From positions 1,674,001 through 1,738,000 of the forward strand of contig CP070276.1 in the NCBI GenBank assembly GCA_016916535.1: 64,000 nt of DNA. The letters are read 5' to 3'. The DNA comes from Dysgonomonadaceae bacterium zrk40. GTDB lineage: Bacteria > Bacteroidota > Bacteroidia > Bacteroidales > Dysgonomonadaceae. Of the stretch, positions 1-64,000 are shown in pieces. A model generated the notes under the pieces. The model ran no database searches and was not told the DNA's origin. It was given only the letters and a program-made list of their open reading frames with translations. A program made the translations under genes and the position numbers. The first letter of the stretch is position 1, and the number at the start of each line of letters is the position of its first letter.

Positions 1-639
1 AACCATCCGGGACATACCGTAATCTCATACGTCAATACCACGGCAGCGGTAAAAGCGTTGACCGACATCGTGGTGACCTCTACCAATGCCCGTCAGATTG
101 TAGAATCGCTTCCGGAAGATGAGAAGATTATCTTCGGACCGGACAAACATCTGGGTGATTACATCAATAAGATCACCGGCAGAAATATGTTGCTTTGGGA
201 CGGCGTTTGCCATGTGCATGCACAATTCTCACTGGAGAAGATATTGGATCTTAAAAGAGAACACCCTGATGCATTGATTCTCGCACATCCTGAGTGTCCC
301 GCTTACCTGTTGGAAGTTTCTGATCATGTGGGTTCTACCTCTTCCATCCTGAAGTATGCCACCCAATCCCCTAAAAAAGAGTTCATCGTGGCTACCGAAG
401 CGGGTATCCTGCACCAGATGCAAAAAGACAATCCGGACAAGATTTTTATTCCTGCTCCACCGGAAGATGCCACCTGTGCCTGCAATGAGTGTTTTTACAT
501 GAAGATGAATACACTTGAAAAGTTGTATCTCTGTCTGAAAAATGAGCAACCCGAAATCTTTGTGGAGGAGTCGGTAAGGGTAAAATCGGTAAAATCAATT
601 GAACGGATGCTGGAGATATCCGAGCGATATGGTTTATAA
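1..639 (+). CDS. nadA: quinolinate synthase NadA (5' end outside window)
   Basis: Reading frame 1 is open from the first base, so the gene begins upstream of the window. NadA condenses iminoaspartate with dihydroxyacetone phosphate to quinolinate in cytoplasmic NAD synthesis. The visible part has the family stretches SYVNTTAAVKA and VVTSTNA near its start, the cysteine of WDGVCHVH, and a C-terminal CNECFYMKMNTLEKL. These carry two of the three ligands of the [4Fe-4S] cluster; the first ligand would lie upstream. HPECP and the serine/threonine-rich GSTSSI are also typical. The protein ends normally at TAA. No nadB or nadC is visible, because the upstream neighbours are cut off. The identification is secure; only the start is missing. 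Confidence 0.95.
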   Translation, partial: NHPGHTVISYVNTTAAVKALTDIVVTSTNARQIVESLPEDEKIIFGPDKHLGDYINKITGRNMLLWDGVCHVHAQFSLEKILDLKREHPDALILAHPECPAYLLEVSDHVGSTSSILKYATQSPKKEFIVATEAGILHQMQKDNPDKIFIPAPPEDATCACNECFYMKMNTLEKLYLCLKNEQPEIFVEESVRVKSVKSIERMLEISERYGL

Positions 640-50280: not shown

Positions 50281-51150
50281 TCAATTCAACCTTTTCAAAT
50301 CTTTCCGGTGATATTCAATCAGCCCTTGCATCGGATCCTTGTCAATTACCCCGGGTATCATACCCTGTTCAATAATCACCTTCTCCAGGAGCTCCCGAAA
50401 ATGATATGCTATGGATCCGACGCAGTTAAAACTGTATCGTTGGTAGTTGGGATACAATGCAACAATATTGCGGAAGAAATCGCGGAAGGCACCTGTTACC
50501 ACCTGCGCGTAATAGGTATCTTCCTGTAGGTGGTCCCCGGCGAAACGGGCAAAAGAGGCACAGTAACGATTGGCAACGGGATGTTCATACACCCTGTTCA
50601 ACAGATCATTGCCACCAAGGTGATAGGTCTGATAAAATGCATCCCTTATACTTTTGGGCATCACCTCCCTAATATAGTCTCCGATCAATTTCTTGCCGAT
50701 GTAGCTGCCGCTGCCTTCATCTCCCAGCAGAAAACCAAGTGACTCGATGTTGGCGACAACCTCTTTTCCGTTATATATGCAGCTGTTGGCTCCCGTACCG
50801 AGGATGGCCGCGAAGCCCTCCTCCTCGCCCAGCAGGGCGCGGGCGGCCGCCAGCAGGTCGGTTTCGATGGTGATGGCTGCCTTGCGAAAGATGGCGGAGA
50901 TCCCCTGTATCAGGATATCGTCACTCTCGGGGGAGTAGCCGCCACCGGCGCTGTAAAAGAAGATACGGGTTACATCGCCAGCCTTCTCTTGTATCGCAGC
51001 GGGCAGCATTCTCCCAAGTGATTCGCGGATCTGGGCGCTATCCACGAAAAAGGGGTGATATCCCTCGGTCTCGAATGGCTGTGGTGCTCCACGCTGATCG
51101 AGCAGCACCCAGCTTGTCTTTGTTGATCCACCGTCGGCAATCAGTATCAT
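50281..51150 (-). CDS. BadF/BadG-type N-acetyl-hexosamine kinase (MurK/NagK-like)
   Basis: The 289-residue actin-fold kinase begins MILIADGGSTKTSWVLLD, the phosphate-1 loop. It has AAILGTGANSCIYNG near residue 117, the phosphate-2/GlcNAc-kinase signature, and LGFLLGDEGSGSYIGKKLI. Relatives phosphorylate GlcNAc or MurNAc at C6. Being downstream of murQ and a transporter gene, it most likely makes MurNAc-6-phosphate, as MurK does in the murTKQ operon of Tannerella forsythia. GlcNAc kinase activity is the alternative; both could be true. Confidence 0.85.
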   Translation of the reverse strand: MILIADGGSTKTSWVLLDQRGAPQPFETEGYHPFFVDSAQIRESLGRMLPAAIQEKAGDVTRIFFYSAGGGYSPESDDILIQGISAIFRKAAITIETDLLAAARALLGEEEGFAAILGTGANSCIYNGKEVVANIESLGFLLGDEGSGSYIGKKLIGDYIREVMPKSIRDAFYQTYHLGGNDLLNRVYEHPVANRYCASFARFAGDHLQEDTYYAQVVTGAFRDFFRNIVALYPNYQRYSFNCVGSIAYHFRELLEKVIIEQGMIPGVIDKDPMQGLIEYHRKDLKRLN

Positions 51151-51231: not shown

Positions 51232-52506
51232 TCAGGAGCTCTTTGTCCTGATCTTATGTCCCCACAGGGCGTAGAGCGCGATGATCAGATAACCGGGTAC
51301 CACCATCCAGTAAGCCTGGCGTGCATCGAGGCTGTCGGCCAGCCGCTCATAAATGAGCGGCAATACCGCTCCCCCTGAAATGGCCATCACCAGCAGCGAA
51401 GAACCCACCTTGGTGAACCTCCCCAGGTCGGAGATCGCTAGGGGCCATATGGAGGGCCACATCAGTGAGTTGGCCAACCCCAGCAGGGCGATGAAGAGCA
51501 CCGATGTGAAACCGCTGGTCAGCTGTGAGGCGATGATGAAGAGGATGCCCAAAAGTGAGGAGAAGATGAGCGACTGCTGCTGGGAGAAGTAGCGGGGAAT
51601 GCCAATGATGCCAACCACGTAACCGGTCAGCATGAAGAAGAGTGTCATCGAGGTGAACAGCTTGGCACTGCTCATGGCGATACCCTGAAAGGAGCCATAC
51701 CCGATGATGGTGTTGCCGGCAATCACCTCTACCCCCACGTAGATGAAGAGGGTGAACACACCCAGCATGAGGTGGGGGAACTGCACAATGCTCTTCTTCG
51801 AGGCACTGTATGGCGTTTCAGAAGTGAGCTCCTCTTCCTCTTCCTCAACCACCTCCGGCAGCGAGGAGAAATGGATTGCCAGGGCTACCAGCAACAGCAG
51901 GCCGGCGATGAGCAGGTAGGGAACAACCACCTTGCGGGCCAGCTCATCGAGCAGAAACGTTTTCTCAGCAATTGCCATCGTTTCCAGGGCTGTGGTGAGC
52001 CCGTCGGCATCCTTCAGGACGATGGATCCCAGGATCAGGGGACCCAGGATGCCTGCCACGCCATTGCAGATGCCCATGATGCTCATGCGGCGGGCTCCAC
52101 TCTCACGCGGGCCCAGGATGGTCACGTAGGGGTTGGAGGCGGTTTGCAATATGGAGAGACCCAGTCCCTGCACAAACAACCCTAAAAGGAAGACAGCGTA
52201 AATGCGGGTCATCGCAGCCGGTATAAACAGCAATGAACCAACGGCCATGCTCACAAGACCAAAGGTGAGGGCATTCTTGTATCCAATCTTTTTCAAGAGG
52301 TATCCCGATGGGATCGCCATCACGAAGTAGGAGATGTAGAAGGCGGAGGAGACCAGCATGGCCTGGATCGATGTCAGCTCACAGGCAATCTGCAGGTAGG
52401 GAATTAACACGGCGATGGCCCAAGTTACGAAGCCAAAGATGAAGAACAGTCCCCCGATGATCACCAGGGGATAAAGATAGGCTTTCTTGCGCGTTGCATC
52501 CATCAT
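51232..52506 (-). CDS. MFS sugar transporter, FucP/GlcP-like (candidate MurNAc permease)
   Basis: The 424-residue protein has twelve membrane helices and the FucP-family pattern: FFIFGFVTWAIAVLIPYLQIACELTSIQAMLVSSAFYISY in outline at residues 18-57, and GLGLSILQTASNPYVTILGPRESGARRMSIMGICNGVAGILGP in outline around residue 110-150. The central loop (about 210-240) is acidic (VVEEEEEELTS). These proton symporters carry fucose, glucose or N-acetyl amino sugars. Its ATG overlaps the murQ stop (ATGA), so MurNAc or GlcNAc is the expected cargo. Confidence 0.87.
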   Translation of the reverse strand: MMDATRKKAYLYPLVIIGGLFFIFGFVTWAIAVLIPYLQIACELTSIQAMLVSSAFYISYFVMAIPSGYLLKKIGYKNALTFGLVSMAVGSLLFIPAAMTRIYAVFLLGLFVQGLGLSILQTASNPYVTILGPRESGARRMSIMGICNGVAGILGPLILGSIVLKDADGLTTALETMAIAEKTFLLDELARKVVVPYLLIAGLLLLVALAIHFSSLPEVVEEEEEELTSETPYSASKKSIVQFPHLMLGVFTLFIYVGVEVIAGNTIIGYGSFQGIAMSSAKLFTSMTLFFMLTGYVVGIIGIPRYFSQQQSLIFSSLLGILFIIASQLTSGFTSVLFIALLGLANSLMWPSIWPLAISDLGRFTKVGSSLLVMAISGGAVLPLIYERLADSLDARQAYWMVVPGYLIIALYALWGHKIRTKSS

Positions 52507-53330
52507 TCCTGTACGCCCCCGTTTAGGTGCAGTTTCTTCAGCGCGTTGGCCACACTGCCATGCTCAAGCAGGAATGCACGCGCCTGTTCGTAGTCGCTGA
52601 TGCTGGACTTGTCCATCAGGATGCGCACCGCCCTGTCGGTGATCTTGTAGTTGATCAGCTGCACGTTCACCATCCTGTTGTCGAGCACCCTGCCAAGCTG
52701 TATCATCACCGTGGTGCTCATCATGTCGAATACCATCTTCTGGGAGGCGCCGGCCTTCATGCGGGTGCTGCCGGTCACAAACTCGGGACCGGTGATCAAC
52801 TCGAGTGGATAATCGGAGACCGCCGCGATGGGTGAACCGGGGTTGTTGACGATGCAGCAGGTGGTGATGCCGTGTGCCTGACATTGTTCCAGGCCGTAAA
52901 GCACGAACGGCGTGGTGCCGCTGGCCGAGATGCCCACCACGATATCTTTCGGGCTTACCCCCTTTTCGGTGAGCATCTCCCACGACTCTTCCGCATCATC
53001 CTCTTTCTCCTCCAGGGCAAGGATCAGCTTGTCTATGCCACCGGCCAGCACGGCGCAGATGGTGTCATCTTCCATGCCGAAGGTGGTGGGCAGCTCCAGC
53101 ACATCGAGCACCGAGAGACGCCCCCCCGTGCCTGCCCCCAGGTAGATCATCCTTCCCCCTGCCTTCACCTTCTCCACCACTGCCTCCAGCATCAGGTCGA
53201 GTTGTGGCTTGGCCGATTCGATTGCCAGGGCTATTTTCTTGTATTCGGTGATCAATCCGGAGGTGAGCTCCCTGACGCTTTTCATCTCCAGATCGTTGTA
53301 TAACGAGGGTTGTTCAGTAATCTTTTCCAT
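52503..53330 (-). CDS. murQ: N-acetylmuramic acid 6-phosphate etherase
   Basis: MurQ removes D-lactate from MurNAc-6-phosphate to give GlcNAc-6-phosphate in the cytoplasm. The 275-residue protein has the SIS fold with YLGAGTGGRLSVLDVLELPTTFG, where Glu79 is the general acid/base; the E. coli ECPP is ELPT here, a form seen in Bacteroidetes. Further marks are VGISASGTTPFVL, NNPGSPIAAVSDYPLELITGPEFVTGSTRMKAGASQK in outline, and LGRVLDNRMVNVQ. It heads the murQ-transporter-kinase-EEP operon. A clear -7 box is not seen in the 80 AT-rich bases before it. Confidence 0.95.
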   Translation of the reverse strand: MEKITEQPSLYNDLEMKSVRELTSGLITEYKKIALAIESAKPQLDLMLEAVVEKVKAGGRMIYLGAGTGGRLSVLDVLELPTTFGMEDDTICAVLAGGIDKLILALEEKEDDAEESWEMLTEKGVSPKDIVVGISASGTTPFVLYGLEQCQAHGITTCCIVNNPGSPIAAVSDYPLELITGPEFVTGSTRMKAGASQKMVFDMMSTTVMIQLGRVLDNRMVNVQLINYKITDRAVRILMDKSSISDYEQARAFLLEHGSVANALKKLHLNGGVQE

Positions 53331-53411: not shown

Positions 53412-54749
53412 TTAAATATTTTTAATTGTATTGGCAGCTCTGTGAATTTTCCAGATTGCATCAGCAATCAATTCCATATTTCCCCTATCGCCCAACAGCA
53501 TGGTCTGCGTGAACCACAAGGCTTCATCGCATAATTTATCATTCACAGGGCAGTTGATCTGTTCCTGCCACTGTTTCATGCTTCTCTCTCCGTAAATTTT
53601 CAGGTAGTGCTTGTTCTTCGAAAGATTTTGCACATATGCCTCTTTGGGAAGAGATGTGTATCCAGTAGAACAGGAAATTCCTTCAGCGTTCAGAGCCCTG
53701 ATAAATTTTGAACGGTCCATACCAGCAAATGCCTCCTTGTCGTAACGGAACATGTAGAGGTGATAGGCACTGCGGGTGGTCCCTTCGTAGAGCTTGGCCG
53801 GCTTGACCCCAGGAATCTCTGAAAGAAGTTTGGTGAGATAAGCAGCGTTTTCAGAACGTTGTTTGATCTGTTCCGGGATACGTGTCATTTGTGCCAACAA
53901 AATGGCAGCCTGAAACTCAGTCATTCTAAGGTTTGAACCGCGTGTACCGGAACCGGGTTCAAGACTCGCCGCATTGGATCCTTGTCCCTGATGGTGGAAA
54001 CTGTAGCATTTGTTGTAAAAATCCTCACTGTTGGTGATGATGGCACCTCCCTCGCCTGAATTCAAATTCTTGGATGCCTGAAAACTGAAGGCGCCACCAA
54101 GTCCGAAGGTCCCCACTTTCTTCCCTTTCCACTCTGCAAAATGTGCCTGACAGGCATCTTCGATCACGGGAAGATTGTATTTCTTGGCAACACTCATCAC
54201 CGCATCCACATCAAATGATGAACCACCGATATGTACAGGCATCAATGCACGTGTCTGGGATGTTATAGCAGACTCAATTTTTGAGGCGTCGATCTGAAAA
54301 CTCTCAATATCGGTATCCACAAAGATGGGGAGTGCATAGTTTTGTACAATCACGTTGTATGTGGCAATAAACGTATAAGGTGGTAGGATCACCTCGTCAC
54401 CGGGCCCAATGTCAAGAGCTCCAAGCATGGTGGTCAGGGCTGTGGTTCCACTCGATGTGGCAAGTGCATGTCCAGAACCAGTCATTTTGCTGAAATCTCG
54501 TTCGAACCGTAGTGCTGTGGGGCTTCCCAAACGGCACCACTTGCCACTGTGCAATACTTTCACCAGTTCCTCCTCTTCGGGAGTACCAATCACCGGCCAT
54601 TTTTGCCATGTACCATTGAATGAACGTTTGCCTCCAAGAACAGCTGGTCCGTGTGTCTGAGAATGCATCGAGATTGGGAATCCAGATAATCCCAGTGCAG
54701 TACCCACACTTAGTATTGAGGTATTTTTTAGAAAATTTCTACGTTTCAT
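53412..54749 (-). CDS. Tat-exported DegT/DnrJ/EryC1/StrS-family PLP protein
   Basis: The 445-residue protein begins with a twin-arginine signal (KRRNFLK at residues 2-8, hydrophobic core to about residue 26). The fold type I PLP domain has ATSSGTTALTTMLGAL, EVILPPYTFIATYN, PVIEDACQAHFAEW with the ring-binding Asp198, and FSFQASKNLNSGEGGAI with the PLP lysine Lys227. All key residues are intact, so PLP could be bound before export. The family makes amino sugars from nucleotide-linked keto-sugars, substrates not expected outside the cytoplasm, so the exported protein probably has a different role. It lies 76 bases after the ceramidase-like gene and 81 before murQ. Confidence 0.85.
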   Translation of the reverse strand: MKRRNFLKNTSILSVGTALGLSGFPISMHSQTHGPAVLGGKRSFNGTWQKWPVIGTPEEEELVKVLHSGKWCRLGSPTALRFERDFSKMTGSGHALATSSGTTALTTMLGALDIGPGDEVILPPYTFIATYNVIVQNYALPIFVDTDIESFQIDASKIESAITSQTRALMPVHIGGSSFDVDAVMSVAKKYNLPVIEDACQAHFAEWKGKKVGTFGLGGAFSFQASKNLNSGEGGAIITNSEDFYNKCYSFHHQGQGSNAASLEPGSGTRGSNLRMTEFQAAILLAQMTRIPEQIKQRSENAAYLTKLLSEIPGVKPAKLYEGTTRSAYHLYMFRYDKEAFAGMDRSKFIRALNAEGISCSTGYTSLPKEAYVQNLSKNKHYLKIYGERSMKQWQEQINCPVNDKLCDEALWFTQTMLLGDRGNMELIADAIWKIHRAANTIKNI

Positions 54750-54825
54750 GTATAATTTTTTTTATTTCAGTATAGTATTTCTCTATAATTCAATAATTAT
54801 CATAGTACACTCTAAGTGAAAATTT

Positions 54826-56787
54826 TTAGTGAGTTATGTATGTTTTTGATTTAATTTTCTCAACTATTCTGCTATCAATATCTTTTGGAAAGATTCCTGG
54901 CATTCCATACCAATAGAAAGAATCATGACCTTCATATGTTTTTTTTATAACATGGTTTGAGTCAGGCAAATAACTAGAAACGTCGTTTGAATAACCAATT
55001 ATCGAAACAATTTCATTAGGGAAAAGATTTTTGATTTCCTTGCTATAAGAATTTACTGGCTCTCTTGATAAACCAATGAGTTTCCAATTTCCTATGTTTA
55101 TTGTTTGAATATATATTGGAACATGTGAAGGAATCAAATTTTTATCAAGTTTACATAAATGTAAATCAGACCATCTGACAAACATTTCAGCATTTATGTC
55201 ACCTGTTCTATGTGAGTTTTTAGTTTTGATGCTTACTATTTGCTCTTTACTAGGGATATTAAGTTGTACAAGAAGTGAGTCAAAGGAAAATGATATTTGT
55301 CCACTGATTTTTTCCATAGATTCTTCCATCCTTAGTGCTACTTCTGAACCCAAAATTTCACCAGTTGTCTTATAATCTTCAAATCTAGGATTAATATCAC
55401 CACCACATCCCTGTAAGAAAACAGATGTTTTTGCAAGTGTAGTTTCTTCAATAAACTTTCTTGCTGTTCCAGGATAATTTGGGCTGATTGTATATGAATA
55501 TAGATCCTTATTTGGGAAAACAGGATGACATCCTGTTAAAAAAATAACATTGTTTAATACCCCATTTAAATTATTAATTTTGACTATATCTAATGAATTG
55601 TCAATATTCTTTACTTTCAAACTTCTATTGAATCCGATAAGCGTTTTAGTTCGGCCAAATGATAACTCTGATTTTTCCATTTTAGCCATAGCTCCTAAAG
55701 TAGCCTTAATTGTTGCCTTTTTTAGCTGATCGTTAAATCTATTATCCGGAATACCTGAAGCTCCGAATGATTCCCAATTTCTTGATAATGGAGCAAAATG
55801 AGTATGAGTTACGTTTATGAGTATTGCTACTGGTTGAATTCCTGTAACTTTACTAATTTCACTTTTTATTTCTGATGACAGTTTATAGTCAATGGTACAA
55901 ATATCTAAACTAATTAAAGCAATTGTTTTAGTTCCGTCGCTGATAACAACCGAACGAACAGATAGATCACCTTCAGAGGTATTCTGTGAAATGAATAAAT
56001 CATTATTAAGATTAGTACCGAATAATCTCCCATCTAAAATAGCCAAGTGTTTTATATATTCAGAATATGTTTCTCCATTGAAGTAACCAACATTCATCCA
56101 TGCGTTTTCTTCTTTAGTCAAACAATATTTCCATATTCTTTGATTCCGTGTAACAACATAGAGGTACCCATCATATGAAATTAATGAAAGCACTTCAGGT
56201 TTAGTTTGGGCCTTTTCCTCCCAAAATATTCCCTTTTCAGTAAATGTGCCTTTTAATAATATATTATCTGGCGTAATTATATAAAAATTATTATTCGCGG
56301 AAGTTATTGTTATTGCATCCGGAATTTTTTCACCTTTGACCCAATCTTTAGATTTGTCCGATAAGTCGTATGTATAAAGGTGGTTGTCCAGTGAAATTGC
56401 ATAAAGTTTTTGATTGAAACCTGTCAATAACTTGAATGAATTCGAACTTAATCCGGCAAGTAATGTATCAGATTTTTGTTGTCCAATTTTTAACCATCTA
56501 TTTTTGCTATTTGTTGTGTCTCTTCTTAAAATTTCACCATGTTGGTTTATACCATACAGTTTATTTTCAATACCCGTCAAGTATACCAAATTGGGAAGAG
56601 TTTGAAAAAATTTCCATTGAATTGTGAATCTCCCTTCTGAGGGAGCTCCATAACCAGCAAGTGCGCTCGAAAAAATAGATTTTTCTGGTTCTATACTACC
56701 ATGATCACTACCTACCAAATAAATGTTTTGACTGTTCGTAATTAAAGAGAAACAGATGAGAAAAATATTGATTAGAATAGTTTTCAT
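54826..56787 (-). CDS. neutral-ceramidase-fold protein interrupted by a five-repeat beta-propeller
   Basis: The 653-residue protein has a signal peptide (residues 1-19). Residues 22-50 (GSIEPEKSIF, AGYGAPSEG) match the start of the neutral/alkaline ceramidase family, and residues 275-620 its body: SLDICTID, INVTHTHFAPLS (metal-binding His328/330), TGCHPVFP (His421) and LQGCGGDINPR. In between, about residues 52-265, five repeats with W-x3-G/K ends look like a tachylectin-type propeller. The family's nucleophilic serine (GDVSPN in Pseudomonas) is Asn466 here, so classical ceramidase activity is doubtful. A hydrolase of another amide, ester or glycoconjugate, or a binding protein, is possible. 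The region is AT-rich. Confidence 0.75.
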   Translation of the reverse strand: MKTILINIFLICFSLITNSQNIYLVGSDHGSIEPEKSIFSSALAGYGAPSEGRFTIQWKFFQTLPNLVYLTGIENKLYGINQHGEILRRDTTNSKNRWLKIGQQKSDTLLAGLSSNSFKLLTGFNQKLYAISLDNHLYTYDLSDKSKDWVKGEKIPDAITITSANNNFYIITPDNILLKGTFTEKGIFWEEKAQTKPEVLSLISYDGYLYVVTRNQRIWKYCLTKEENAWMNVGYFNGETYSEYIKHLAILDGRLFGTNLNNDLFISQNTSEGDLSVRSVVISDGTKTIALISLDICTIDYKLSSEIKSEISKVTGIQPVAILINVTHTHFAPLSRNWESFGASGIPDNRFNDQLKKATIKATLGAMAKMEKSELSFGRTKTLIGFNRSLKVKNIDNSLDIVKINNLNGVLNNVIFLTGCHPVFPNKDLYSYTISPNYPGTARKFIEETTLAKTSVFLQGCGGDINPRFEDYKTTGEILGSEVALRMEESMEKISGQISFSFDSLLVQLNIPSKEQIVSIKTKNSHRTGDINAEMFVRWSDLHLCKLDKNLIPSHVPIYIQTINIGNWKLIGLSREPVNSYSKEIKNLFPNEIVSIIGYSNDVSSYLPDSNHVIKKTYEGHDSFYWYGMPGIFPKDIDSRIVEKIKSKTYITH

Positions 56788-56859
56788 GTTGATATGTATC
56801 TTTTTTCTGGTGTAATAATGTACTTGGAATAATAGATTTTCATATGATGGGTTGAAAAA

Positions 56860-58158
56860 TTATTTTTCCTTAAGTTGTTCATCCATCCATAATATGTCAC
56901 GTTGGATAACATTTTTTGTATCCGGATAAATACCTGGGAATTTGTTGATGAATTTAAAGAGCAGATTTTCTAGTTCAAATTTGTACTTTATTGCATCTTT
57001 TTCGCTTGTATGCAATAAGCGTTTAAATTCATCACGTGCACTGTTTATTCTTGTACTCTTACTCCGATATGTTAGTGCCCCAGGGTAATATGATATCAAA
57101 TCTCTTAAAATAATTTCCTGCTGTTTGTTCTCACTGTTGTATTTTATTGCTTGAACAATTGATTGACTTGGATTATAATTTTTCGGATTAATTGCGTAAT
57201 CAGCCATAGTAAATAAGGGCATTCTGTTCATCAAGTTATCCCGCATTGGATTTCCCATTATTCCATGAACTACATTGTTCAGTTCAGGATCACGTCCAGT
57301 AACAGGTGCGAGATGCAAAGAATTATTGAAATCGTTTACCGGATAATTATCCCATAGTATAAGATCATGACCTATAATATTTTTATATTCTATAGCATCT
57401 TCAATTGTTACCTTATTGGAGACAACATCATCACCTGTCCAAAAACAAAGAATATCTTCGTTTAAATATGTTGAAATTTCAATTAAATATGCTTTCTTGT
57501 CTGGCTCATTCATTGTATCTCCCCAATACCATGTTGGACAAAATATCATTTTACAGTTTGGATCATTTTCTAACAATGCATCATAAAGCCTATTTGTGAA
57601 ATCTGATTGACCAATACCATCAACTTTCATACCTTCATGTAAATGAAGATCGTCTAGTGCTAGATAAAACCAGTTCACGCCTTGGTCCTGAAACCACTTA
57701 TATCTTGATAGTAATGTTTCAAAATCTTCTTCATTTTCTGTGTCTAGTGGCCTAGCTGAGTACAACATAGGATTCATCCCAAAACAAAAATTAATATTGT
57801 GTTTTTTTGATTCCTCTATTACTTCTTTCCACTCTTTTTCCTGTTCTGGATTAAAAGGTACCCACCAATCATTAGTTCCAATTTCGAATTTGTAGTCGCG
57901 AAAGAACGAGCCATAACAAGTCGCAAGAAAGTTCATTCCATAAGATTTAAGTGTTGGTATTTCAGATATATATTGTTCTGGACTCCAGAAAAAACCTTTG
58001 GTTCCTCTTATGGTAAACTCATTTCCTTGGTCTTTTTTTCTTGAAAAATAATTATTCTGTTTATTTTTTGACAAATCAATGGTGTAACCATGAATGGGTT
58101 TCTGAGAAAAGATTGGAAGTGATAATAAAATGGTAAAAATGAATATTATTTTTTTCAT
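56860..58158 (-). CDS. GH84-type beta-N-acetylglucosaminidase
   Basis: The 432-residue protein has a signal peptide (ILLSLPIFSQ). Its barrel starts at GTKGFFWSPEQYISEIPTLKSYGMNFL in outline (residues 52-78), the family's G-F-Y/F-x-x-x-W pattern. The catalytic aspartate pair of substrate-assisted GH84 enzymes is Asp169-Asp170 in FYLALDDLHL. LCFWTGDDVVS and ILWDNYPVND (near residues 237-277) match the conserved WTG and WDN sugar-binding motifs. It would cut terminal beta-GlcNAc from glycoconjugates in the periplasm or outside. It is the first gene after the hairpin that closes the susCD transcript. Confidence 0.88.
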   Translation of the reverse strand: MKKIIFIFTILLSLPIFSQKPIHGYTIDLSKNKQNNYFSRKKDQGNEFTIRGTKGFFWSPEQYISEIPTLKSYGMNFLATCYGSFFRDYKFEIGTNDWWVPFNPEQEKEWKEVIEESKKHNINFCFGMNPMLYSARPLDTENEEDFETLLSRYKWFQDQGVNWFYLALDDLHLHEGMKVDGIGQSDFTNRLYDALLENDPNCKMIFCPTWYWGDTMNEPDKKAYLIEISTYLNEDILCFWTGDDVVSNKVTIEDAIEYKNIIGHDLILWDNYPVNDFNNSLHLAPVTGRDPELNNVVHGIMGNPMRDNLMNRMPLFTMADYAINPKNYNPSQSIVQAIKYNSENKQQEIILRDLISYYPGALTYRSKSTRINSARDEFKRLLHTSEKDAIKYKFELENLLFKFINKFPGIYPDTKNVIQRDILWMDEQLKEK

Positions 58159-58259
58159 TGCATTAGTTATTGAATTTGTTTGATCAATTTATGAATCTCT
58201 GTCTGAGAATAAATTTGAAATTAATTTTTTAAATATAAAAAAACAACATTTATGTTTTA

Positions 58260-58295
58260 AGTACTGGCAATTGAATTATTTCAATTGCCAGTACT
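58260..58295 (-). terminator. 16-bp perfect hairpin after the IPT/NHL gene
   Basis: AGTACTGGCAATTGAA pairs with TTCAATTGCCAGTACT across a TTAT loop, one of the strongest hairpins in the window. On the minus strand it begins seven bases past the IPT/NHL stop and is followed only by TTAAAAC, so it may be a weak terminator or an mRNA 3'-end stabiliser. It separates susCD expression from the enzyme genes. Confidence 0.7.
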
Positions 58296-58301
58296 ATGTT
58301 T

Positions 58302-60386
58302 CTACTTCAAATAAAGTTTTCTAATTCTTAGGTGTTCCTGATCAGGTATATAGATATTTCCATCTGAGTCAATTGCAACTCCCCAACCACGATACGGAAC
58401 TTCTGTACCCCAGCCTTTTTCGACGAATGGTGTTATGGCGCCAGTGCCCATGACAGATGATACATATCCGTCCGGATGAATTTTTCTCAAGTAATAATTT
58501 TGTTTGTTAGTTCCGTCTGATACAAATAGATTTCCGTCCGGAGCAAGTGATAGTCCCTGAGGATTGAAAAATAGCGCTTGATCGCCTGGGCCGTCAACAT
58601 GTCCAATTTTTGTCCGATCAGCCGGACCCGCGATACGGACAACTGTTTTGTCTGGATTAATTTTCTTGATGCAATTGTTTAATGCATCACAAACATATAT
58701 AGTACCATCCGGACCTACAGCCAGACCTCGTGGACTGTTGAAGGAACTAACCGAATTGGCTATCGCAGCATTTAAATCATCCCCGGCAATTGTTGATACT
58801 ATATGATCTGGGAGAGTAATTTTTCGAATTGCGTACCGATCTCCAACAATAAGGTTTCCATCATTATCAAGTGTAATACTGTAAGGTTGATTGAATGTTC
58901 CTTCTGTCCCGACACCATCTTTTGCGGATGTACTTGTTACATTACCTGCAATAGTGGTCACAATACCGTCAGGTGAAATTTTTCTGATGAGCTTATTGGT
59001 GACATCGGCAACATAGATGTTATCATCATTCCCTACTACAAGATCATATGGATATTTAAATGTTGCATCTGCACCTATCCCATCGTTGCTGCCATATATC
59101 TTATACTGACCAGCCAGGAAGATAACTTTGCCATCAGGAGTCAACTTTCTAACGGTACCACCACCAGATTCAGCAATATATATGTTTCCATTTTTGTCTA
59201 GTGCCAAGTTTACCGGTTGTGTAAATGCTGCTTCCATGGCATTGACCGGTGTCAGACTAGATCCCAGAACTCCGTTTCCTGCAATGACCTCGGTGTAATA
59301 ACGCAATAAGTGAAAAGGAAGTGTATTGGAAATGCCATCACCAACTTTCACAGTTACCATTACATCTGAATTTTCATCTGCAAAAGCCGGAACAGATACC
59401 GTGAGTGATGTCTGTGTCGCATCAATTACCTGACCCTCATTGTTGCCAAAGAATACTTTATTGTTACTGATCTCCGGATCGAAACCATTACCGGAAATGG
59501 TAATACGTTCATAAAACTCTGCATCATTTTTAGATAATGAGTGTAACGCGACAGTTGCATAATTGAATTGTACTGATTCTGAAACGTCATCATAAGAGGT
59601 CACAGTTACATTAGCAGCTCCTGATCCAGGAGGAACAATTACTTTTAGTTCTTCATTTGAAGAACTTACAATATTTGCTTCATTATTACCAAAAGTTACT
59701 TTGTTTTCACCAGTTGGAGATTTAAAGGTACCTTCCAATCTAACTGTGTCGCCAGGGAATGCAGAGGCAGGAATAATGGCAGTCAAGGTCGTTTTCGTAA
59801 CCACGTATTCAAATTTTAGGGCACCTGTTTTATTTCGCCCAACAGCCACAGTTACATTCACTGATCCTTTACCTTCTGGAACAATCACATTCAACTTGTT
59901 TTTTTCTGCAGATTTTACAGTGGCTACAACATCATTGAACTGAACAAGATTGTTAAACGGGTTTTCGTTGAAGTTATCACCTGTCAGAATTATTTCATCC
60001 CCAACTGCACCTTTATCTGGTGTTATTGATGAGAGAGTTAAAGTAGGAATAAGAAATTTAAATGGCACTCCTTCGGATGTTATGAGGTCCCGTGTTACCG
60101 TCACATTGACAGTTCCTGTTCCGTTGGGCACAAGTACTTTCAATTCAGTTGTACTACTGTTTTGTACCAATGCAATATGTTCACCAAACCTTACAATATT
60201 ATCTTCAGCATTTAGAGCAAAGTTTTCACCCTTAATGGTGATTACATCATTTACATAACCCTCGGAAGGAGAAATTTCGGTAATAATTGCTCCTCCGTAC
60301 ATCTCGGGTTCAGGACTCTCGCAGGTTATCATCAAAAGTATTGTTAATAACGCGAAAATGGGTATTAATAATTTTCGGTATTTCAT
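58302..60386 (-). CDS. lipoprotein with four IPT/TIG domains and an NHL propeller
   Basis: The 694-residue lipoprotein (Cys22, LLMITC) has four Ig-like IPT/TIG domains at about residues 34-112, 113-196, 197-277 and 278-361, each with the G-x-V/D-x-I-x-G-x-x-F turn. NHL repeats follow at about residues 366-694, marked by PVNLALDKNGNIYIAES, PYDLVVGNDDNIYVAD and PRGLAVGPDGTIYVCD, giving roughly six blades. In SusCD loci such proteins take the SusE/F place, holding glycan at the surface. Enzyme activity is not suggested. It overlaps the preceding gene by four bases (ATGA). Confidence 0.87.
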   Translation of the reverse strand: MKYRKLLIPIFALLTILLMITCESPEPEMYGGAIITEISPSEGYVNDVITIKGENFALNAEDNIVRFGEHIALVQNSSTTELKVLVPNGTGTVNVTVTRDLITSEGVPFKFLIPTLTLSSITPDKGAVGDEIILTGDNFNENPFNNLVQFNDVVATVKSAEKNKLNVIVPEGKGSVNVTVAVGRNKTGALKFEYVVTKTTLTAIIPASAFPGDTVRLEGTFKSPTGENKVTFGNNEANIVSSSNEELKVIVPPGSGAANVTVTSYDDVSESVQFNYATVALHSLSKNDAEFYERITISGNGFDPEISNNKVFFGNNEGQVIDATQTSLTVSVPAFADENSDVMVTVKVGDGISNTLPFHLLRYYTEVIAGNGVLGSSLTPVNAMEAAFTQPVNLALDKNGNIYIAESGGGTVRKLTPDGKVIFLAGQYKIYGSNDGIGADATFKYPYDLVVGNDDNIYVADVTNKLIRKISPDGIVTTIAGNVTSTSAKDGVGTEGTFNQPYSITLDNDGNLIVGDRYAIRKITLPDHIVSTIAGDDLNAAIANSVSSFNSPRGLAVGPDGTIYVCDALNNCIKKINPDKTVVRIAGPADRTKIGHVDGPGDQALFFNPQGLSLAPDGNLFVSDGTNKQNYYLRKIHPDGYVSSVMGTGAITPFVEKGWGTEVPYRGWGVAIDSDGNIYIPDQEHLRIRKLYLK

Positions 60387-61216
60387 TTGTTTGATTTTTT
60401 AATTGTGAAGTCAACAACAATTGGAAGATGATCAGATGCTTGTGTGAGAATAGTATGAGCATTATTTTTAAAAATAATCTTTTCATTCCCGAAAATATAA
60501 TCAATGCGTTTTGTAGGATTATTTGCAGGGAAAGTGTAAAAACTATTTCTTGTTGAAAATGCATCATTGTATTTGTTTGATATAATTTCTAATGGTACAC
60601 TCTCGGGTGTTGCATTTAGATCACCGGCAAAAATTACAGGTTCATTATCAACATCTGCGAGAAACTCCAATGTTTCATTTGCCTGCTTGATCCTTCCTGA
60701 TTCTGTAAGGCCAAAATGTGATACAGCAACATTAACAATTTGACCATTTTGCAACTTAATCTTACTTTTTGTAATTACCCGTGGCCATTGATCACCTTCG
60801 GAGAAGAACCTGGTGCCCAGATGTTCGATAGTTGATTTTGTTAATATTGCATTTCCCACCTCTCTCTCGGGGTTTGGTGAATTTTCAATTATGATTGATG
60901 CTCTAAACAGATGATTCATTCCAAGTTCATCTGCCAAATACTTTGCCATATCCATGTTATTGGAACGGTCACTGTAAAATTTGTCAACTTCATTTAGAAT
61001 GATAATATCTGCTTCAGCATTTTCTAATACATCCTTAATCCGGTCAATATTAAAGATCCCGTCTCCACCTACACCAAAGTGGATATTATACAGCAGAACA
61101 CGAATATCTTCCTCATTTTTTTCAGACGTTTTGGTATCATCAATGCTGTTATCATGACATGCATAAAGGATAAACGATACTAAAAATATGCCTAGGGTTG
61201 ATAATATTTTTTTCAT
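60383..61216 (-). CDS. EEP-family lipoprotein in the susCD operon
   Basis: The 277-residue lipoprotein (Cys20, FILYAC) has EEP motifs LLYNIHFGVGGDG, IIILNEVDKFYSDRS (metal Glu), VAVSHFGL, FAGDLNATPES, RIDYIFGN and SDHLPIVVDF. It differs from the other EEP lipoprotein at 49.4 kb in the NIHFGVG start, which resembles sphingomyelinase- and PGAP-like phosphodiesterase branches, but the fold alone does not reveal the substrate. It is 17 bases after susD and overlaps the IPT/NHL gene, so it is part of the core import operon. Confidence 0.85.
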   Translation of the reverse strand: MKKILSTLGIFLVSFILYACHDNSIDDTKTSEKNEEDIRVLLYNIHFGVGGDGIFNIDRIKDVLENAEADIIILNEVDKFYSDRSNNMDMAKYLADELGMNHLFRASIIIENSPNPEREVGNAILTKSTIEHLGTRFFSEGDQWPRVITKSKIKLQNGQIVNVAVSHFGLTESGRIKQANETLEFLADVDNEPVIFAGDLNATPESVPLEIISNKYNDAFSTRNSFYTFPANNPTKRIDYIFGNEKIIFKNNAHTILTQASDHLPIVVDFTIKKSNK

Positions 61217-61233
61217 ATTATTTTTATTTTCAA

Positions 61234-62970
61234 TTAAAAATTCCAGCCAGGATTTTGAACAAGATTTTCATTTATAGATAATTCATTCAATGGAATGGGA
61301 TACAAATAATCTCGATTTTCATTAAATGTTTTAATTGTAAATGGCTGTGGCAACAGATAACCATAAGTACCATGAGACAATATCTTGGTGTCTCCCAAAA
61401 CCAGGTATGTAATACCTGCCATAGGTTGTGCCGGCTCATTCTTGACAATCATAAAGTCATCAACTCCGTCACCATCCAGATCCTGAAGGCTCATTTTATC
61501 AAAATAGATACCGGTAAATCTTTGTTCAAGTAGTTGCCCTCTCCGCCATCTCATTAAATCCATTCGGCGTAAACCTTCAAAAGCAAGCTCAATTCTTCTT
61601 TCCCTTCGTACTTCCAGTATGGAAGCACTTGTCACTTCCGGATAAAGTAATTGCTGACTTGGATCAATCTTCAAATCTTCAATTTTTAAATCGGGCAGGC
61701 CTCCACGTTTTCGTGTCAAATTTATCGTTCGGTTCAAATCATTCTGGTTGAGGGTCCCAAGTTCAGCTTTTGCTTCAGCGTAGTTCAGCAAGACTTCAGC
61801 GTAACGAAAAACGGGAATTGCATTTGCACTTTCATTGTATGCATCATTATTGATCCCTGATAAGAACTTAGTTACCTGATAACCAGTTGCAGCTTTCTTA
61901 AAATCTGGAAGCAGCACCTCTGTTGTGCCTATTCTTTTATAACCCGGGGTTCTTATTGTCTGAGAGAGTCTTCTATCTCTACCTGTACATTCCTGTGAAA
62001 ACAGAAACCTTTTAGATTCGGGAATTGAAGAATAGAATGAACCATCTTCCATGAGGTATGATTCAACCATCTGTTTTGTCATGCCACTTCCACCAATCAT
62101 TGTTGGTGCTAATAGCATATAGTTCATTGCATGGACAATACTTAATTCTTTACTGTATACCCTGGAAAGAATGAATTCGGCGTTTGGTTCATCTTTGGTG
62201 AACATATCCTGATAGTCCGTAATTTTTCCATTGTCATAAATGGAATAACCACTCTCCTCCATGAGCTTAAGAGAAGCGTTTACGGATTCGTTTAAGAATT
62301 TATTTGCTGAATCGGTCAACTTTAGATTTTTGTGATACTTACGGTATGTACCTTCGTAGAGACAGAACCTTGACTTTAGTGCTAATGCAGTCCACTTAGT
62401 GATTTTTGTTGGGTGTCTGTCCGCATCCAGAAAGCCAATTGCCGTATTTAGGTCAGACAGTATTGAGTCAGTTACAAGGATTCGGGGGTCACGTGGCTTG
62501 TACAATTCAGGAGAGTTGGTCTGAAGAGGAGTCGAATACCAGGGAACATCTCCAAATAGTTGTAACTTATCAAAGTAGAACCAAGCTCTAAAAAACTTTG
62601 AAAGGCCTTCATAATAATTTAAAACTTCATCAGGTAGATCTGCTTTTCTATAATTTTCCAGGAAATAGTTAATACTTCTCAATGTGCCCCAATCCCAGCC
62701 TCCACCGGAAGCAGGGACAGTCCTTACTCCGGCCAAAAATGCGCTATAGACATTCAACTCAACGTTATCACTGGTACTGAAATCACTCTCAACGACATCT
62801 AAACCTGGGACATAACTATAAAATCTGTTTGAATATAATTCCAGTTCTGCTTCTGAGTTGAAAAAATTGGAATCAGTCACCTGCTTCGTGGGTTCTCTTT
62901 CCAGAAAATCGTCATCGCAGCCTCCAAGAAGCATGATTACTATGAAAAGTAATGTTATATTTTTTTTCAT
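61234..62970 (-). CDS. SusD/RagB-family surface glycan-binding lipoprotein
   Basis: The 578-residue lipoprotein (Cys18, MLLGGC) has the SusD opening FLEREPTKQVTDSNFFNSEAE in outline and the TPR-rich fold. YAEVLLNYAEAKAELG near residue 395 and ERRIELAFEGLRRMDLMRWRRG near residue 470 are family signatures. It forms the hinged lid over the SusC-like transporter and captures the glycan. It lies 11 bases after the susC-like gene. Confidence 0.95.
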   Translation of the reverse strand: MKKNITLLFIVIMLLGGCDDDFLEREPTKQVTDSNFFNSEAELELYSNRFYSYVPGLDVVESDFSTSDNVELNVYSAFLAGVRTVPASGGGWDWGTLRSINYFLENYRKADLPDEVLNYYEGLSKFFRAWFYFDKLQLFGDVPWYSTPLQTNSPELYKPRDPRILVTDSILSDLNTAIGFLDADRHPTKITKWTALALKSRFCLYEGTYRKYHKNLKLTDSANKFLNESVNASLKLMEESGYSIYDNGKITDYQDMFTKDEPNAEFILSRVYSKELSIVHAMNYMLLAPTMIGGSGMTKQMVESYLMEDGSFYSSIPESKRFLFSQECTGRDRRLSQTIRTPGYKRIGTTEVLLPDFKKAATGYQVTKFLSGINNDAYNESANAIPVFRYAEVLLNYAEAKAELGTLNQNDLNRTINLTRKRGGLPDLKIEDLKIDPSQQLLYPEVTSASILEVRRERRIELAFEGLRRMDLMRWRRGQLLEQRFTGIYFDKMSLQDLDGDGVDDFMIVKNEPAQPMAGITYLVLGDTKILSHGTYGYLLPQPFTIKTFNENRDYLYPIPLNELSINENLVQNPGWNF

Positions 62971-62981
62971 CGTTCTTAATG

Positions 62982-64000
62982 TTAAAAATTAATGTCAACA
63001 CCTAATGTAAATGTTTTTTGTGTAGGATATACCAGTCCAGCTCCATTGCTGTTAATATTTGCAATACCTTCAGGATCAAATGATTCGTGTAGTCTAGTAA
63101 ATGTGAGTAAATTTTGACCTGTAAAGAATATCCTGAACTTATTTATCCAAACATGATTGGTCAATTTTTGAGGTAATGTATATCCGAAAGTCAATGTTTT
63201 CAGTCTCAGGTATGATGCGTCTTGCAGATATTTTGTCTGAATAGCACCAAGCTCGTAATTGCTCTTTTGCGCAATATAAGCTCTCGGACGTGGGAAATAT
63301 GCATTGGTGTTCTCAGGGGTCCAATAGTTATCTACATGATGTTCCATTACAGGATTGTAATATCTGTTATAAAAACCCCAGAAGAAAGATGATTCGGGCC
63401 CGGGATAGAAATCTCGTTGACCAACACCCTGTAAGTAAAGATTTAAATCAAAACTACTCCAGTTAGCAGAGAAATCAATGCTAAAAGGATAACGAATTGA
63501 ACTATTCCCAATCCTGGTCAGATCGCCATGATCATATAAGGTTTGTTTACCTTTTGTGATTTTTCCATCGTTGTTTAAATCTGCAAACTTGATGTCACCA
63601 GCACTTAGGTCATTGGGCAGCATTGATACTTCTGTCTGATCAGCCCATCCCATTGCATCTTCATCTGACTCGAAGTACCCCAAGGTGGATAATCCCCAAA
63701 TTGTGCCGATTTCCTCTCCAACATTGTATCCGGAAAGTAGTTGCCCATCATTTCCGCTGAACCTTGTTATTACTGCTTTGTTATCTGACATTACAAAAGA
63801 AACTGAGTACCTGCCATTTTTATCAAAGATCTTGAAATTATCCTGCCAGGTCATTGAGGCTTCCCAGCCTTTTACAGAAAGATCTGCTGAATTTGTCCGA
63901 GGAACTGATGCTCCCAAAGTTGCAGGCAATGAGACTCCAGCCACCAACATGTTTCTTGTTTCTCTTTCATATACATCAAAACCGAAGTTCAGTTTGTTTC
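62982..64000 (-). CDS. SusC/RagA-family TonB-dependent transporter (C-terminal part)
   Basis: The frame is open to the window edge, so only the last 339 residues are present; the ATG at 63950 is internal. The visible part is the C-terminal barrel: GWEASMTWQDNFKI, a late-barrel DINNDGKIT-type loop (FADLNNDGKITKGKQ), YLRLKTLTFGYTLPQKL and FFTGQNLLTFT, all typical of SusC ends, and it finishes with an aromatic-terminated strand (TLGVDINF). It would import the glycan released at the surface, powered by TonB. The promoter and plug are outside the window. Confidence 0.93.
   Translation of the reverse strand, partial: NKLNFGFDVYERETRNMLVAGVSLPATLGASVPRTNSADLSVKGWEASMTWQDNFKIFDKNGRYSVSFVMSDNKAVITRFSGNDGQLLSGYNVGEEIGTIWGLSTLGYFESDEDAMGWADQTEVSMLPNDLSAGDIKFADLNNDGKITKGKQTLYDHGDLTRIGNSSIRYPFSIDFSANWSSFDLNLYLQGVGQRDFYPGPESSFFWGFYNRYYNPVMEHHVDNYWTPENTNAYFPRPRAYIAQKSNYELGAIQTKYLQDASYLRLKTLTFGYTLPQKLTNHVWINKFRIFFTGQNLLTFTRLHESFDPEGIANINSNGAGLVYPTQKTFTLGVDINF

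Follow-up and report, generated by a model that had tools for sequence, protein, structure and literature searches.

We identified, in a 64,000-nucleotide stretch of Dysgonomonadaceae bacterium zrk40 (the whole of which we call the window), a gene whose product combines the neutral-ceramidase fold and intact metal and catalytic residues with a long inserted domain of five repeats. The gene belongs to a conserved set, and the genome carries a second kinase-MurQ pair apart from it. We read the protein, with roughly even confidence, as an exported, catalytically competent zinc amidohydrolase acting in an amino-sugar salvage module (Table 1). According to this model, the propeller, inserted in the loop after the first strand, would most likely help to select or hold the substrate, while the hydrolase would act on an amino-sugar compound by cutting an amide bond, either that of an N-acyl group or that of a peptide carried by a muramyl-type sugar. 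The products would then meet an exported DegT-type PLP enzyme, the sugar would be imported by an MFS transporter, and in the cytoplasm a kinase would phosphorylate it at C6 and a MurQ-like etherase would strip its C3 substituent. The presence of GH84 and SusCD genes in the local block favors a salvage role. Against it, the MurQ-like protein and the kinase may use substrates that never meet the hydrolase, and the exported PLP enzyme is without an assigned role; our search found no biochemically characterized close relative.

Table 1. Features of the propeller gene and its neighborhood, in window coordinates.
Feature	Coordinates	Strand	Basis
Ceramidase-type propeller gene	54826-56787	-	ORF, 653 aa, ATG at 56787
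Signal peptide, N-terminal, residues 1-19	56731..56787	-	Sequence and helix 2-16 in model
Catalytic domain segment 1, ceramidase-like, residues 20-52, AGYGAPSEG at end	56632..56730	-	Alignment with 2zws from its residue 1; conserved
Predicted five-bladed beta-propeller insert, residues 53-270	55978..56631	-	Model, fold match, repeat comparison
Propeller parts: closing strand 56-63 (W58); blades about 64-114, 115-157, 158-197, 198-242, 243-270			
Ceramidase-like putative zinc hydrolase domain, main part, residues 271-653	54829..55977	-	Alignment and fold match
DegT/DnrJ/EryC1/StrS PLP enzyme, Tat-type signal, SKNL lysine	53412..54749	-	Pfam 328 bits, linkage, motifs
Divergent MurQ-like SIS protein (MurNAc-6P etherase relative)	52503..53330	-	Profile scores
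MFS sugar transporter, NagP/GluP-like	51232..52506	-	Profile match, linkage
BadF/BadG-type amino-sugar kinase, N-I-E-S-L where MurK has N-V-S-P-L	50281..51150	-	Motifs
GH84 beta-N-acetylglucosaminidase-like, upstream neighbor	56860..58158	-	Pfam NAGidase 182.6 bits; GC 0.32
TIG-NHL lipoprotein, AT-rich block	58302..60386	-	Profile match, composition
SusD-like outer-membrane glycan-binding lipoprotein	61234..62970	-	Pfam SusD_RagB

The family start (GSDHGSIEP...ALAGYGAPSEG) and the body of the enzyme lie about 215 residues apart, with five repeats between them. The initial annotation had proposed just such a split, and it is borne out by the open reading frame, by the size of the gap and by the repeats themselves, as all ten of the ten possible pairs were positive in a repeat-to-repeat profile comparison (77-98% probability each). 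The insert occupies the loop that joins AGYGAPSEG to EGDLSVRS; in relatives without a propeller, this stretch spans about 10 residues. Orthologs have either a signal peptide or a Cys resembling that of a lipobox. Only in the window copy does blade one contain an extra stretch of about 11 residues (residues 104-114; 56446-56478), where model confidence is low. A promoter and terminator scan of the sequence gave no usable signal.

An AlphaFold model built from 32 related sequences reached a pLDDT of 91 and a pTM of 0.90; a first model from 12 orthologs only had poor active-site loops (pLDDT 76), which the addition of non-propeller relatives mended. The model places strands of four blades at residues 67-99, 118-154, 160-194 and 199-235, followed by three strands at 245-269. 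Ahead of blade one runs a strand at 56-63 that contains W58 and is available to finish blade five, in keeping with the earlier suggestion that the tryptophan strand at 56-60 could close the last blade. A closed propeller had been anticipated at residues 52-265, and modeled residues 50-271 match closed five-bladed propellers, aligning with the glutaminyl cyclase 3nol over 201 residues (Z 18.8, 2.9 Å; VIA-align). From the strand count and this fold match, we infer that the five blades form a ring. A profile of the propeller part from 12 orthologs matched designed and BamB-type propellers. The resemblance to tachylectin, which the initial annotation suggested looking for, and to tectonin is weak in both profile and fold matches, with Tachylectin PF14517 scoring 20.2 bits at residues 74-181, below its cut-off of 29.8.

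Homologs with the same insertion were found in sixteen other loci at 32-41% identity, one of which runs off the end of its contig; at this distance, such conservation rules out a chance reading. Full-length relatives are found among Dysgonomonadaceae, with Proteiniphilum and Petrimonas among the genera, and among three more families of the same order. In a 395-genome sample of the phylum, the full architecture was present only in the window's own genome, the other strong matches starting at the body. In the literature searched, no earlier account turned up of a ceramidase with a propeller or linked to polysaccharide utilization, DegT or peptidoglycan. In two genomes (G053:C1:245077-245184 and G058:C20:4509-4616), only the last 36 residues match, between murQ and degT; these are apparent remnants of a lost copy. 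Related but separate propeller-like proteins with a HETYNAIS or HDTYNAIS motif are encoded directly beside non-propeller ceramidase-like genes in two other loci (L002:2697-3956 and L066:7850-9193), and perhaps represent propeller partners in trans.

The catalytic domain has the fold of a neutral ceramidase. Comparison of the model (residues 19-653) with the Pseudomonas enzyme 2zws (chain residues 1-487) gave Z 40.1 over 390 residues at 3.5 Å, and the human enzyme 4wgk (ASAH2) gave Z 37.6 (VIA-align). A profile of the body from 12 orthologs also matched 2zws and 4wgk, and a profile of the body with 14 non-propeller relatives matched neutral ceramidases only (E 4e-29 and 2e-28). The alignment stops at 2zws residue 487, where the window protein ends, and the C-terminal Ig-like domain of ceramidases is absent. 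Pfam detects this relationship poorly: Ceramidase_alk PF04734 scores 17.8 bits at residues 277-390, below the gathering cut-off of 32.1, and a PF04734 search of the window genome returned no match, the protein sitting below the reach of that search. All 12 orthologs scanned match PF04734 at E values up to 0.1 (best E 1e-8).

Profile alignment to 2zws equates H328, H330, R388, H421, E576, Y606 and Y618 with the Pseudomonas residues H97, H99, R160, H204, E411, Y448 and Y460, the roles of catalytic and zinc residues being taken from a review and general background. Across 32 sequences, the first five are invariant and each tyrosine has one exception. The earlier observation that H328/H330 and H421 remain and that Asn466 occupies the serine position was thus correct, Asn466 aligning with the serine of the 2zws GNLSP motif. 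The proposed lack of a catalytic serine did not hold up, and Asn466 gives no support for a loss of catalysis. The serine of GDVSPN/GNLSPN is not the nucleophile of neutral ceramidase (review), and Asn, though found in 15 of 15 propeller proteins, is also the residue in 11 of 17 relatives without a propeller (the rest being S in 4, D in 1 and T in 1), so its occurrence does not follow that of the propeller. Judged from these alignments, Asn466 is an ordinary state of the branch and no sign of a dead enzyme. What does distinguish the propeller clade is N437, which is D or E in all 17 non-propeller relatives and D in both solved ceramidases, and R575, which adjoins the zinc glutamate E576 and is G or D in non-propeller relatives. 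Their fixation is compatible with changed specificity on an active enzyme. Of the two roles first proposed, a new specificity is probably right.

The propeller gene is flanked in its relatives by genes for DegT, the MurQ-like SIS protein, the BadF-type kinase and the MFS transporter, in varying orders and in several families. The propeller protein occurs in 12 of 101 genomes of the family. Module-type DegT is present in all 12 of these (16 genomes in all; Fisher p 1.5e-12, ancestry ignored) and module-type MurQ in 11 (15 genomes in all; Fisher p 1e-10, again ignoring ancestry). Three propeller loci (L047, L048 and L064) lack the module nearby. Non-propeller ceramidase-like genes of distant Bacteroidota also lie near DegT (L066, L067, L069), and in L007 such a gene lies with kinase, MFS and DegT genes; several of these DegT proteins are Tat-type; the partnership of ceramidase-like protein and DegT therefore probably predates the propeller. 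Tat-like signals with the lysine kept were seen in the window DegT and in those of L002, L006, L041, L045, L063, L065, L066, L067 and L069. These DegT enzymes are closest in sequence to 2-deoxy-scyllo-inosose aminotransferases, and an exported sugar aminotransferase inside a catabolic locus is unusual. Gfo/Idh/MocA-type oxidoreductases, most of them with Tat-like signals, adjoin ceramidase-like genes in three loci (L066:2541-6429, L069:7039-8049 and L064:6748-9787), and in L066 and L069 they also adjoin the DegT genes.

The kinase and MurQ-like protein recall MurNAc salvage, and the Bacillus MurNAc operon includes an amidase, AmiE. By analogy, the propeller protein could be an exported N-acetylmuramoyl-L-alanine amidase that frees MurNAc from muramyl-peptides for import, phosphorylation and cleavage by MurQ. 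Besides the families of the two cytoplasmic enzymes, this is favored by the retention of both acid/base glutamates in the module MurQ proteins, by R575 and N437, which would make the site less acidic and suit an anionic substrate, and by a NamZ exo-beta-N-acetylmuramidase gene (PF07075/PF20732; 27583-28749, minus strand) 26 kb from the propeller gene, which fits MurNAc salvage by the organism. The protein has no Pfam or NCBIfam match to described N-acetylmuramoyl-L-alanine amidase families. A crystal study of MurK attributes its MurNAc specificity to S133-P134-L135, which leaves room for the lactyl group, and to T94 (PMC10465942). The window's module kinase keeps T94; at the S-P-L site, however, module kinases read N-[IV]-[ED]-S-[LM] wherever the site is readable. 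In the module MurQ proteins the ligand loop is altered, TSGRLGVLDASE being replaced by (T/S/N)(G/D)GRL(S/A)VLD..E, and the window's copy scores 286 bits against NF003915 (cut-off 168) but 239 bits against TIGR00274, under the etherase equivalog cut-off of 302. Moreover, the genome encodes a second, canonical kinase and MurQ (L075:7987-9697; G000 C1, about 332-333.7 kb), with the motifs QVSPLGF and DASEIPPTFG, beside an AmpG-type permease and a SpoIID-like protein. These features, together with an exported DegT enzyme that the amidase scheme leaves unexplained, make the amidase reading unlikely, and the kinase-pocket and second-MurQ results lowered plain MurNAc as a candidate for the module sugar. 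They suggest that the pair handles some relative of MurNAc, or a compound that the exported enzymes produce. This reading is drawn from motifs, and in T. forsythia another kinase, K1058, departs from S-P-L as well yet uses MurNAc (PMC10465942).

The window copy of the gene has an unusual setting. Its GC content is 31% (GC3 0.22) versus 46-58% for the DegT, MurQ, MFS and kinase genes, and it belongs to an AT-rich block (GC 0.31-0.40) that spans 54750-64000 and about 2.5 kb beyond (L070 1-4500), with genes of normal composition on both sides. The block holds the SusC, SusD, EEP, TIG-NHL, GH84 and propeller genes, SusC lying beyond SusD and running past the window edge, and ends ahead of an anti-sigma/sigma pair whose composition is closer to normal. 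Compositional evidence makes it likely that this polysaccharide-utilization block was acquired as a unit. The window's DegT, MurQ and MFS proteins are 75-91% identical to those of Petrimonas and Proteiniphilum, but identity of the propeller protein is no more than 33-35%. Trees group the window's DegT and MurQ with these genera and leave its propeller protein alone on a long branch, its exact place unsure. Petrimonas and Proteiniphilum have the gene between degT and murQ, but in the window that slot is 81 bp and the gene is upstream of degT. Our reading is that the native copy was replaced by one carried in with the block, the alternative being fast divergence in place. A crossover inside degT as the block edge was looked for and not clearly seen. 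The 40 kb examined beyond the block contained no tRNA, and no integrase or transposase was recognized there by eye.

This setting also suggests an exported N-deacylase or deacetylase that would strip N-acetyl or N-acyl groups from amino-sugar glycans within a polysaccharide-utilization block (GH84 and GH123; GH20 in relatives). The GH84 and SusCD neighbors, a GH20-like gene near the L006 copy and the NagP-like transporter all fit, as does ceramidase chemistry, itself an N-deacylation. GH84 and GH20 enzymes, however, rely on the N-acetyl group in catalysis, and the conservation of a MurQ-like etherase would be left unexplained; we consider this role improbable.

A non-catalytic protein, in which the propeller and a degenerate enzyme domain serve glycan binding or sensing for the polysaccharide-utilization locus, could account for Asn at the serine position and for the faint likeness to tachylectin and tectonin. 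Against it, 15 propeller proteins that are only about 35% identical all retain the full set of metal and catalytic residues, Asn is frequent among relatives, and the serine that it replaces is not the nucleophile; because the metal site is intact, the pure lectin-like binder that was the other role first proposed is less likely, and we hold it quite improbable. Least probable of all is a genuine lipid ceramidase, with sphingolipids or glycosphingolipids as substrates and EEP-fold (endonuclease/exonuclease/phosphatase) proteins (49416, 60383) as sphingomyelinase-like partners: neutral ceramidases are the closest solved structures, and two EEP-fold proteins and a GH123 enzyme are nearby, but the Pfam score is below cut-off, the ceramidase C-terminal domain is absent, the EEP and GH123 genes are not beside the gene in relatives, and the conserved partners handle amino sugars.

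Beyond the salvage role that we prefer, we tentatively raise a distinct, undescribed catabolic pathway for a C3-substituted amino sugar, parallel to MurNAc salvage, in which the propeller-ceramidase would open an amide, the exported PLP aminotransferase would remodel the compound outside the cytoplasm, and the last steps would fall, inside, to a MurK/MurQ-type pair of altered specificity. Many proteins of these Bacteroidota bear the name neutral/alkaline ceramidase while having no assigned substrate. The propeller clade ties one such lineage to amino-sugar salvage, which suggests that some of the family are misnamed. It also points to another pathway of the MurK/MurQ type, one whose specificity has changed and which includes an exported PLP enzyme.

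The neutral ceramidases 2zws/2zxc and human ASAH2 (4wgk) share with this protein the catalytic-domain fold, the motif order and seven zinc/catalytic positions. They differ from it in that here a propeller occupies the first long loop, Asn stands at the serine position and in place of the conserved Asp of SPDN, Arg precedes the zinc Glu, the Ig-like domain is missing, the Pfam score falls short and the genes around it concern amino sugars. Non-propeller ceramidase-like proteins of Bacteroidota (L035-L037, L054-L059, L020-L026) have the same catalytic residues and mostly a GD(I/Q)NP-type motif, but lack the propeller, carry D/E at 437 and G/D at 575, and are only 19-26% identical to the window protein. 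The insert resembles the five-bladed glutaminyl cyclases 3nol, 3mbr and 2iwa and the tachylectin-2/tectonin propellers in blade number and overall shape (Z up to 18.8), yet identity is 11-16%, the propeller is here an inserted domain and cyclase function is not apparent. At the level of the locus, the closest parallel is the murTKQ operon of Tannerella forsythia (PMC5790795, PMC10465942), in which a BadF-type kinase, a MurQ-family etherase and a sugar transporter are likewise adjacent. In contrast to murTKQ, the module has an MFS transporter rather than a sodium symporter, a kinase with a changed lactyl pocket, and added exported DegT and ceramidase-type proteins, while the canonical pair lies elsewhere in the genome.
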